Origin: Hypomyces perniciosus | Lineage: Eukaryota; Ascomycota; Sordariomycetes; Hypocreales; Hypocreaceae | Reading direction: 5' to 3' | DNA: 64,000 nucleotides | Assembly: GCA_008477525.1 (NCBI GenBank) | Contig: SPDT01000001.1 | Location: 2,790,001 to 2,854,000, forward strand | Shown here: positions 31,514-34,882 of the stretch, piece by piece | Numbering within the stretch: position 1 is the first letter of the stretch | Layout of the letters: every line of letters starts with the position of its first letter | The notes under the pieces: model-generated | Databases searched by the model: none | What the model saw: the letters and a program-made list of their open reading frames with translations, nothing else | What the model was told of the DNA's origin: nothing | Program-made: the position numbers and the translations under genes

Positions 31514-31521
31514 AAAAAAAA
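31514..31521 (-). terminator. RNA polymerase III terminator of the tRNA gene
   Basis: Eight T on the minus strand begin four bases after the discriminator base of the tRNA. A run of four or more T is the Pol III stop signal, so the transcript boundary is well defined and includes the distal 3' half of the split tRNA. Confidence 0.85.
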
Positions 31522-31536
31522 GAGTAGCAATTGCAC

Positions 31537-31545
31537 GTTTCGATC
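31537..31545 (-). promoter_or_regulatory. Pol III B box of the initiator tRNA
   Basis: GATCGAAAC in the T arm is the usual initiator form of the B box (GWTCRANNC). The insert contains a second match, GTTCGAAAC, about 30 nt upstream on the same strand. Confidence 0.7.
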
Positions 31546-31551
31546 GTGCGA

Positions 31552-31605
31552 CTGTGTGATTGTTAGTTTGAGTCGTTTCGAACGAATGACCTGAGAGGTG
31601 CTTAC
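31552..31605 (-). other. Spliceosomal-type intron candidate inside the initiator tRNA gene
   Basis: 54 nt on the minus strand, starting GTAAGC and ending ATCACACAG, with CAAACTAAC carrying a consensus CTAAC branch site about 11 nt before the acceptor AG. This is the same layout as the protein-gene introns here; the Zn2Cys6 gene has a 54-nt intron that also starts GTAAGC and has a CTAAC site. The insert also contains AGGTC followed by a T-arm-like ATTCG-TTCGAAA-CGACT, a possible second B box. Confidence 0.7.
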
Positions 31606-31632
31606 CCTCCGGGTTATGAGCCCGGCGCGCTT

Positions 31633-31643
31633 CCACTGCGCCA
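31633..31643 (-). promoter_or_regulatory. Pol III A box of the initiator tRNA
   Basis: TGGCGCAGTGG fits the A-box consensus TRGYNNARNNG and overlaps the D arm. Confidence 0.8.
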
Positions 31644-31650
31644 AATTGCT

Positions 31651-32416: not shown

Positions 32417-34882
32417 TCAGCCCAACTCCCACGATTCGCCCCAGAGCTCGTTCAGGTTGAGACCCAAGAGCTCCAGGCTCGGGTCGAGGTTGAAAGGCTG
32501 GGTTTGGTCTCCTGCCCCTATAACCCATGGCTGTGTTGATGGGTCAACGGACACTGACGGGATTGATGGTGCGAATGTGAATGGTGTCACGGACTGAAAA
32601 CACTTGTTAGATACACTCGAGTAGTTGGTTATACACTTCCTGCTTACCTTTGGTCTCTCAATATCCAGGCCAGGTGCGGGTCCAACACCTGGCCCCGGAA
32701 GAGTAGGGCCAGAAGCGGCACCGATAGGAGTTCCCGGCATCGGCACCGTTGCTACTGGGGGCTCTTGATTCGCCAGGAGCTTATAGTGGAGATTGACGAA
32801 TCTCTCCGCCGACGTGGACTTGGCCACCTCGGCGGTCTTTGTGCCCAGGTGTGCCTCAAGGAGACCCAGAGCGGCGCACATGATAGAGTAGCCCCAGGGC
32901 TCGTTGTTGCCACACCGGAGTAGTCGATCCTCCTTCATCGCGATGCACTTCTCGATGAGCTTCAACGTGTGGTGGGAGTTGATCATGATCATATTGGTCG
33001 ACCCACGAGGCTGAAGCATCGTGACGCTGCATAGATTGATGGCCGTGGTGAGGGCGTCCTCGCGGAGGAAGTTCAGTGCGCGGATGCCTTGCTCGTAGAG
33101 TTTGTCGTGGAGAAGGACAATGTCTCGAGCGGCGTTGTAGTAAATGATTTCCGAGTATTGATACTTGGAGTTCTGCTTGCGCAGTTTGAGGTAGGGTTGA
33201 TGAAGGGGGATGATGTATTGCCTCAGCTGGACGTGGAGCAAAGTGTAAGCAATGAGCGGATTCTTTTTGGTGTTGTTGTTGTTTTCGGGATTCATATCCC
33301 AGGATGGTAGAGCATCGATCTCGTGTGTTAGATCATTCGTATATCGAATGACCTGATCATAGTCTATTTCAGACAGTGGCCCGGTCAGAAGCCGGCTTAG
33401 CTCAAGGCGCAAGGGCAAACTCTGCCGTGCCAGATTCTGGAACGATGAAAAAGTATACTCCTTGGCTGGCTTGGACGATGGCAACACCGTCGTGTTCTCG
33501 TCAAAGTCTTCATCGTCCAAATTTCGAGGTGGGTTGGTGTCATAATGGAGTTGGCTTACCAACGTTGGTAGCCCATGATCAAACGAAGCTTGCATGTCAA
33601 ACTCCTGCACCGTTGCCCAGATCCTCCGCCGCATCTCCTGGTTGTAGACCGTAATCTTCCCTCCCATGTGGCTCGGCTCGCGGTGTAGTCCTACAGCGAT
33701 GCCATCCTGGATCAGTGCGCCAGAGCTGGTCCAGAATCGCTTCTTCTTAATGGTGTTGACGCGCTTGCCGAGATAAAGCAAGCAAGCTACCTGGTAATGG
33801 ATGAGTCGCCGATGCTTCTGACTCTGCTTTGCCGACCAGGCATCGCATGCCCATATCCACTTCTCTGCCCAATACCGAGCATTTGACATCATGCCGATAA
33901 ACTTCAGCGACTCATGGGTATGAACACAACTAGCCACGGCCATCATAGATAGAACCAGCGCCGTAAAGGCGGCATATCGCTGCTTACTCCCGGGCTTCCA
34001 GTACTCTGCATACTCCTTCCGGAACGTCGGGATGTGTACAATACGGTGGACTTGCTCAAACTGATCCAAGTAGATTGATATCAAGGCATCGGTCTCCTCC
34101 CTCGTCGGGAGCAGTGCCTCAAGCTCGGGATCCGCCAGGTCAAACATGGACTCGCGATCCTCTTGACGGCGCTTGCGATCCTTGCGGTCGTGTAGTATCA
34201 CAGGGCGCAGCCATTCATCCGCCGTCTCTCTCATAAAAGGGCAGAGGCCCGTCAATTCGACAAATGCCATGCTAGCATTATGGGGTCCGAAATAACGGGT
34301 GCGGAAGCCCTTGCCGCGGAAGAAGCGCAGCTCGCCATTTTCTCCCGCCATGCCGCTCTTCTCGATGATCTCTTGCTCCTCAGGCCGAGGTCTCGCCTCA
34401 CCGTCTACCAGCGTCTCATCCTTTTGCGTCGACGGTGAGTTGGTGCCGGCTATGGTGCTCCCATCAAGCGACGACGACGTCGCCCCGGGTCGCGTAAGTA
34501 AGTTCTTCAGCTGAGCTATCTCCAGCTCCAGCTTGCGGATGCGGTCATGGTCCTGGCGGACGACGTCAGAGTCTCTAGGTGAGAAGCCCGAGACGGCATC
34601 AACAATACCGAATCGTCGTGAATCGAGCTGCGCAAACGCTGGCGGAATGCCGGAAGAGGCATTGACTACTTCACCGTTGCGCGACTCATAGCTGCAGCGA
34701 TCAGGGGTGCCGCTCTTGATGCAACGCTCGCAGGGGAAGCCTCGGTCACACGACAGCTTGCGGCGGCGGCACTCAAGACAACTGAGCCTCACGCGTTGTC
34801 TCTTGCGCGCGGGCGGTTGCTCAGAGTCATTTCGAGATCCCGAACCCGAGTCGGATTCCGGGCTTTCGCTGCGGTCTGGCAT
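32417..34882 (-). CDS. Zn2Cys6 fungal-specific transcription factor
   Basis: Two exons (32648-34882 and 32417-32593) give 803 aa. The intron is 54 nt, has GTAAGC, CTAAC and TTTCAG signals, and is stop-free and a multiple of three, so an unspliced read stays open. The ATG at 34882 (MPDRSESPESDSGSGS) precedes the Zn cluster with Cys at 35, 38, 45, 51, 54 and 63 (C-x2-C-x6-C-x5-C-x2-C-x8-C) and a basic ARKRQRVRLS flank. A leucine-spaced coiled coil follows (RKLELEIAQLKNLL). The central region is a typical fungal-specific TF domain, with EQVHRIVHIPTFRKEY, GIAVGLHREPSH and RRRIWATVQEFDMQAS. The C terminus is Pro/Gly-rich and ends ELLGLNLNELWGESWELG, an acidic-hydrophobic region that could activate transcription. 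It is a nuclear regulator; no target can be inferred, as no biosynthetic cluster is adjacent. Confidence 0.88.
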   Translation of the reverse strand: MPDRSESPESDSGSGSRNDSEQPPARKRQRVRLSCLECRRRKLSCDRGFPCERCIKSGTPDRCSYESRNGEVVNASSGIPPAFAQLDSRRFGIVDAVSGFSPRDSDVVRQDHDRIRKLELEIAQLKNLLTRPGATSSSLDGSTIAGTNSPSTQKDETLVDGEARPRPEEQEIIEKSGMAGENGELRFFRGKGFRTRYFGPHNASMAFVELTGLCPFMRETADEWLRPVILHDRKDRKRRQEDRESMFDLADPELEALLPTREETDALISIYLDQFEQVHRIVHIPTFRKEYAEYWKPGSKQRYAAFTALVLSMMAVASCVHTHESLKFIGMMSNARYWAEKWIWACDAWSAKQSQKHRRLIHYQVACLLYLGKRVNTIKKKRFWTSSGALIQDGIAVGLHREPSHMGGKITVYNQEMRRRIWATVQEFDMQASFDHGLPTLVSQLHYDTNPPRNLDDEDFDENTTVLPSSKPAKEYTFSSFQNLARQSLPLRLELSRLLTGPLSEIDYDQVIRYTNDLTHEIDALPSWDMNPENNNNTKKNPLIAYTLLHVQLRQYIIPLHQPYLKLRKQNSKYQYSEIIYYNAARDIVLLHDKLYEQGIRALNFLREDALTTAINLCSVTMLQPRGSTNMIMINSHHTLKLIEKCIAMKEDRLLRCGNNEPWGYSIMCAALGLLEAHLGTKTAEVAKSTSAERFVNLHYKLLANQEPPVATVPMPGTPIGAASGPTLPGPGVGPAPGLDIERPKVSRKCITNYSSVSNKCFQSVTPFTFAPSIPSVSVDPSTQPWVIGAGDQTQPFNLDPSLELLGLNLNELWGESWELG

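Follow-up and report, generated by a model that had tools for sequence, protein, structure and literature searches.

Every initiator tRNA-Met gene that we found in this fungal genome is interrupted, and the inserts, together with those in six serine tRNA genes, have the anatomy of mRNA introns. From the sequence we consider it very probable that they are spliceosomal (mRNA-type) introns lying in tRNA genes transcribed by Pol III. The window, by which we mean the whole 64,000-nt stretch of DNA analyzed, contains the gene with which the analysis is chiefly concerned. Its features, and those of an intron used for comparison, are as follows.

31525..31650, minus strand: interrupted initiator tRNA-Met gene, one of five initiator genes found in the genome
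31606..31650, minus strand: exon 1, 45 nt (nucleotides 1-46: acceptor 5' strand, D arm, anticodon arm with CAT, variable-loop AGG)
31552..31605, minus strand: predicted mRNA-type intron, 54 nt, GTAAGC...CTAAC...CAG
31562..31566, minus strand: CTAAC resembling a branch point, with the second A 11 nt ahead of the insert's 3' end; unchanged in all five copies
31525..31551, minus strand: exon 2, 27 nt (variable-loop TC, T arm with ATCGAAA loop, acceptor 3' strand, A73 at 31525)
31633..31643, minus strand: Pol III A box TGGCGCAGTGG, at gene position 8
31537..31545, minus strand: native B box GATCGAAAC, at gene position 106
31575..31583, minus strand: putative second B-box-like element GTTCGAAAC within the insert, 60 nt from the A box
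31514..31521, minus strand: run of eight T, Pol III terminator-like, three bases beyond exon 2
32594..32647, minus strand: comparison intron in the neighboring Zn2Cys6 protein gene, 54 nt, GTAAGC...CTAAC...CAG

We observed that the coordinates and the two-piece arrangement on the minus strand described in the first-pass annotation hold (45 nt, a 54-nt insert and 27 nt). The insert, read from 31605 to 31552, runs GTAAGC...ACTAACAATCACACAG. In the usual tRNA numbering it lies at 46/47 as first cut, or at 45/46 with the one ambiguous G slid. When the insert was computationally removed and the gene was run through ARAGORN in default mode, a tRNA-Met(cat) was returned with acceptor 7/7, D 4/4, anticodon 5/5 and T 5/5, which confirmed the full pairing claimed earlier for the joined molecule (for the joined tRNA, the lowest-energy RNAfold prediction falls short of the full cloverleaf that ARAGORN finds). 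The initiator marks can be read directly: A1:U72, three G:C pairs at 29-31:39-41, the CAU anticodon and the T loop AUCGAAA. The gene also agrees with four initiator tRNA sequences in an alignment. With its A box, B box and T-run terminator it appears to be a Pol III type 2 gene.

We searched the genome (44.0 Mb in 23 contigs) with two patterns rather than with a full model. The D-arm pattern gave exactly five exact places. The anticodon-arm pattern gave nine, five of which are the same initiator genes (letters checked). Since the anticodon-arm pattern alone, at up to one mismatch, was no commoner than its reversed control (96 versus 96), both arms were required together. The 96 anticodon-arm places and the 53 D-arm places (up to two mismatches) form pairs within 250 nt at the five initiator loci only. 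Two D-arm look-alikes (L155 and L156, with one and two mismatches) were rejected as tRNA genes by eye. The initiator genes are at C3:2821k (the window), C3:236k, C4:5188k, C5:140k and C23:3649k. As for the host, the neighboring Zn2Cys6 protein is 87% identical to a Trichoderma cornu-damae protein and 82% to a Cladobotryum one (over about 90% of the query), from which we infer a filamentous ascomycete (Hypocreales) probably close to Trichoderma.

All five initiator genes carry the variable-loop insert (54, 54, 54, 55 and 55 nt). Two of them, at C3:236k and on C5, carry a second insert of 55 nt after G26 (intron 1; GTATGT...GCTAACTTGCTCCAG), which leaves exons of 25, 20 and 26 nt. The letters of exon 1 are identical in all five copies, contiguous in three and split by the further insert in two; the first 45 nt of the window gene accordingly occur at three places in the genome. 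The first-pass annotation had proposed a search for intact CAU initiator copies. Run by pattern, this search returned the five genes, none of them intact, in an assembly not proven to be gapless. An assembly or sequencing artefact joining unrelated halves has next to no probability. We found nothing in its support, the same structure lies at five loci on four contigs with different flanks, and inserts of the same kind are present in serine tRNAs and in both of the U6 genes described below.

The five copies differ greatly in what has been conserved. The exons are identical at 71/71 positions, while 20 of the 55 aligned columns of the variable-loop insert are variable (Fisher 6e-9). Within the insert, the splice-signal columns (the first six, GTAAGC; CTAAC; and the final AG) show no variation (0/13; hypergeometric P 0.001). 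The 100-nt flanks of the loci are only 0.25-0.56 identical. Conserved exons and signals with diverged inserts and flanks are, as read from these alignments, the pattern of working exons around an intron and not of a disabled gene. The identity of the five copies and their complete pairing are also not what a tRNA pseudogene would present.

It may still be supposed that the five are disabled copies with retained insertions, and that a working initiator gene lies outside the assembly or is too diverged to find, as a pair of patterns and an assembly not proven gapless would allow. We regard this as highly improbable: the exons have stayed identical over 71 nt while inserts and flanks diverged, the splice signals are kept, and the two patterns, which target strongly conserved initiator features, agree on these five genes only. 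The tRNA-Met copies on C8 and C17 are of mitochondrial type and are not cytosolic initiators. The earlier note had left a choice between a spliceosome-dependent tRNA and a retained insertion; five initiator genes with no intact one found appear to favor the former.

For intron 2 (the variable-loop insert), the C5 copy pairs with C23 (98%) and that of C3:236k with C4 (85%), and this kinship cuts across the possession of intron 1 (C5 and C3:236k). It follows that loss or replacement of intron 1 occurred more than once, or that gene conversion moved it. We found no mobile family for intron 1, as a pattern allowing up to three mismatches matched the two initiator genes and two non-tRNA places (judged by eye). 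The window copy of intron 2 holds AGGTC...TTCGAAA, like the exon, and an origin by partial tRNA duplication was considered.

We further evaluated the class to which the inserts belong. All 13 (those of the initiator genes and the six serine ones) are 53-57 nt long, start with GT and end with AG. A branch-point-like motif is present in each, CTAAC in 12 and CTAAT in one, with its A 10-14 nt from the 3' end. In their GT/AG ends, branch point distance and kept signals they agree with U2-type introns. They lie after 26, after 46, at 35/36 and in the D stem, and not at the canonical 37/38. Only 2 of 400,000 random inserts of like composition satisfied a comparable signal rule, which was written after the inserts had been seen. 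As a control, we took the canonical-type tRNA introns that ARAGORN called in the survey loci, 34 distinct ones, with ends as called and with seven mitochondrial-type and six interrupted serine loci left out. These were 11-37 nt long, and none (0/34) was GT-AG.

The inserts also resemble a protein-gene intron of the same genome, one orthologue-supported intron having been tested. This is the Zn2Cys6 intron listed above, whose 18 codons are absent from three of the five aligned orthologues (P0001, P0002 and P0016); the other two, which are annotated proteins, have a stretch at that site. Over the whole window the strict intron pattern was not enriched (12 observed; shuffles had a mean of 7.8 and a range of 3-15). 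Combined intron and B-box patterns were likewise not enriched genome-wide over the reversed control (4 versus 6, and 7 versus 5). What supports the case is position together with conservation, and not how densely the motifs occur.

A different machinery might be proposed: the inserts would be ectopic tRNA introns, and the tRNA-splicing endonuclease and ligase would take them out, as is reported for Cyanidioschyzon merolae and archaea. Non-canonical tRNA introns do exist in archaea, nucleomorphs and C. merolae, and the archaeal positions named in PMC4090602 include 25/26 and 45/46, which the two initiator insert sites match if each is slid by one base. The many canonical-type introns suggest that the endonuclease is present, and 3 of the 13 inserts have three of the four central pairs of a bulge-helix-bulge (BHB). 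Yet a complete 4-bp central helix (the only part of the BHB scored) was found at 0/13 junction pairs. Conserved GT, CTAAC and AG are not needed by the endonuclease, and the 53-57 nt GT-AG inserts separate cleanly from the 34 canonical-type introns. We therefore rate endonuclease removal as quite improbable and retain spliceosomal introns as the best explanation.

To look beyond the initiator, a common B box, GGTTCGANTCC, was located at 164 places in the genome, against 87 for its reversed control. Of these, 90 were examined by script; 16 Rfam-matched tRNAs were skipped, and the other 58 were outside the survey. Interrupted serine tRNA genes were seen at 6 of the 90 places, a count that would miss genes with the 5' acceptor far upstream. 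They comprise four Ser(GCU), one Ser(AGA) and one Ser(UGA), and in five of the six the insert is inside the anticodon.

Six Ser(GCU) genes (L078-L081, L133 and L142) have a canonical 37/38 intron. Four of them add an mRNA-type insert at 35/36, two nucleotides upstream and inside the anticodon, and two are without it. With the insert removed, all six are identical over the first 39 nt and over the last 43 nt, and the sole difference lies in the 12-13 nt canonical intron. The inserts (53-56 nt; GTATGT, GTAAGT or GTACGT...CACTAAC...YAG) are 50-86% alike, with CACTAAC kept. In the pair L080 and L133 the 94 nt outside the inserts are identical, canonical intron included, while the inserts are 57% alike and keep GT, TCACTAAC and AG.

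One Ser(AGA) gene is cut at 35/36 (55 nt, GTGAGT...CTAAT...CAG) and three are uninterrupted. Without its insert the interrupted gene has the family length of 80 nt, and it shows 5 and 7 differences from the uninterrupted copies compared. Since uninterrupted copies exist, the interrupted Ser(GCU) and Ser(AGA) copies may not be in use. In the Ser(UGA) gene the insert (57 nt, GTTAGT...CACTAAC...CAG) interrupts the D stem, and no uninterrupted Ser(UGA) copy was seen among the survey places.

We also scanned the genome for CTAAC...AG followed by GGTTCRANYCC. At a distance of 10-40 nt there were four places, all Ser(GCU) (reversed control, six). At 41-71 nt there were seven (reversed control, five), namely Ser(UGA), three Leu(CAA), one repeat, and C16:2091053 and C16:3124042. 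The three Leu(CAA) matches were rejected as interrupted genes, the match being a chance one in the D loop as judged by eye. The two C16 places, with CTAAC...AG 41-71 nt upstream of a B box, could be further D-arm introns. Under a strict CTAAC and a GGTTCRANYCC B box, the phenomenon looks confined to initiator and serine tRNAs.

Several repeated elements were also noted. A dispersed family (L110, L115, L117, L128, L137, L139, L140 and L143) has a B box and a T run near one end; it is roughly AACAGGTTATRAGTCCCTGCCGCTTC...GGTTCGAATCC and is perhaps a SINE or a retroelement end. Another dispersed, tRNA-like sequence (L090, L122 and L129), beginning GGGGCTGTRTRGCGCAGTRGTCAAGCTCACAGG, has a 7-bp acceptor and a doubtful anticodon arm, and is perhaps a tRNA-derived repeat. 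Five Rfam tRNA matches on C2 (2701, 5606, 8512, 11416 and 14320) are about 2905 bp apart, forming a tandem array with one tRNA-like unit per repeat. Besides the tRNA-Met copies mentioned above, mitochondrial-type tRNA clusters occur more than once in C17 and again in the first 17 kb of C8, and could be copies of mitochondrial contigs or a misjoined end.

The first-pass annotation had predicted that standard tRNA detectors may miss such a gene, and this was borne out. ARAGORN detected no tRNA anywhere in the window, and none in the local piece as long as the insert was present, whether run without introns or with anticodon-loop introns allowed. In default mode it found none of the five initiator genes. 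With long introns allowed, it gave wrong identities (Ser, Val and Arg) at three of the five. The Rfam tRNA model had no match above its cut-off in the window; its best local score at the window gene was 27.8 bits against a cut-off of 29, and this alignment was reached only by taking part of the insert as the T arm. Given these misses, genomes with such genes may look devoid of initiator tRNA. As described in PMC8450103, tRNAscan-SE 2.0 handles noncanonical introns in archaeal mode.

As the first-pass annotation had cited the U6 intron as the nearest precedent, the U6 genes bear on the question. Two U6 snRNA genes were found (L063 at C3:1700161+ and L064 at C4:5851670+), and the precedent is present in both: each has an mRNA-type intron (60 and 58 nt) directly before ACAGAGA, with CTGAC or CTAAC and YAG. 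The same anatomy is therefore found in a second Pol III RNA of this genome. Each U6 intron contains a Pol III B box, GTTCGAACC.

We then considered the promoters of the tRNA genes. Without inserts, the B box of the initiator tRNA would fall at position 52, at a distance of 44 nt from the A box. The native B box of the window gene is 98 nt from the A box because the insert lies between them; across the family the distance is 98-99 nt with one insert and 153-154 nt with two. Both copies of intron 1 contain GTTCGAATC, and in each gene it starts at position 52, just where the native B box would stand. A match to the B-box pattern is also present in the variable-loop insert of two of the five copies, the window's (60 nt from the A box) and C5's (115 nt). 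The expectation for GTTCRANNC is about 0.016 per intron-length, which is an overestimate, the background loci being tRNA-rich. None of the six serine inserts matches, the Ser(AGA) insert having a near match, GTTCAACAG. In L080 the distance from the A box to the start of the native B box is 121 nt, and the insert offers no B box of its own; Pol III may therefore cope with such distances. We infer that intron-borne B boxes may help the transcription of the two-intron initiator genes.

These observations suggest the following route, whose Pol III transcription, spliceosomal excision and order of steps are inferred from the gene structures. Pol III, using the internal A box together with either the native or an intron-borne B box, would transcribe the gene in full as far as the T run. 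The GT-AG intron of 53-57 nt, or both introns in the case of the two initiator genes that have a pair, would then be excised by the spliceosome to give a normal cloverleaf, and end trimming, CCA addition and modification would follow. Where a serine tRNA has the insert at 35/36, spliceosomal removal would come first and restore the anticodon loop; in Ser(GCU) the tRNA endonuclease could next cut the ordinary 37/38 intron. RNA from an insert-bearing Ser(GCU) gene would need both splicing systems. As no uninterrupted initiator gene was found, the spliceosomal step would be obligatory for initiator tRNA. Against the spliceosomal reading we count the exons of the two-intron genes, which are unusually short for the spliceosome.

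Taken together, it seems likely to us, with less assurance than for the class of the introns, that the spliceosome is obligatory for translation initiation in this lineage, every cytosolic initiator tRNA being spliced like an mRNA. As parts of the same proposal, Pol III genes (initiator and serine tRNAs and U6) would have repeatedly gained spliceosomal introns. Some introns would have taken over promoter function with the B box that TFIIIC needs, at native spacing in initiator intron 1, and some serine tRNAs would need two unrelated splicing systems cutting two nucleotides apart.

Textbooks hold tRNA splicing, by a protein endonuclease and a ligase, separate from mRNA splicing by the spliceosome. 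If the inserts are spliced as their anatomy says, this separation does not hold throughout; the spliceosome would have an essential tRNA among its clients, and translation initiation would be tied to splicing capacity. The genes would offer a natural system for studying spliceosome action on an uncapped Pol III transcript with exons of 20-45 nt. They would also serve for asking how introns arise in genes intolerant of mistakes, and whether introns donate promoter elements.

We looked for similar cases elsewhere. Pattern scans of viral contigs for interrupted initiator or serine genes gave no match, and neither did one pattern scan of a genome contig collection. Five viral contigs matching the uninterrupted anticodon region were set aside as having no bearing on fungi, all being 62-68% GC; three have bacterial- or phage-type tRNA clusters (8, 24 and 18 genes) and two a single tRNA-Met. 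Titles and abstract beginnings in open-access PMC, with subscription journals and preprints outside the scope, gave no mention of a spliceosomal intron in tRNA.

Among known systems, the fungal U6 introns (Schizosaccharomyces pombe and others) are close: they are spliceosomal, measure about 50-60 nt and interrupt a Pol III RNA that is short and structured, and the S. pombe intron also holds a B box. However, U6 is itself a component of the spliceosome, whereas here the host is a tRNA, with all five initiator genes found affected and up to two introns per gene. The canonical eukaryotic nuclear tRNA intron at 37/38 also interrupts tRNA genes, and even occurs together with the inserts in the same Ser(GCU) genes, but it differs from them in position, size (11-37 nt here) and ends. 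The ectopic introns of C. merolae, nucleomorphs and archaea share with the inserts a location away from 37/38, with some positions the same; in PMC4090602 they are described as of the endonuclease type, with a BHB in C. merolae and archaea, while the inserts here lack a complete BHB and carry GT, a branch point and AG. The fungal U3 snoRNA introns (PMC5832005) are normal spliceosomal introns and, like the inserts, lie in a small structured RNA gene, but their host is not a tRNA. According to that 2017 paper, no small structured RNAs other than U3 and U6 were known to have introns often. The mRNA-type introns in Pol III RNAs were known before, but in tRNA they are apparently new.
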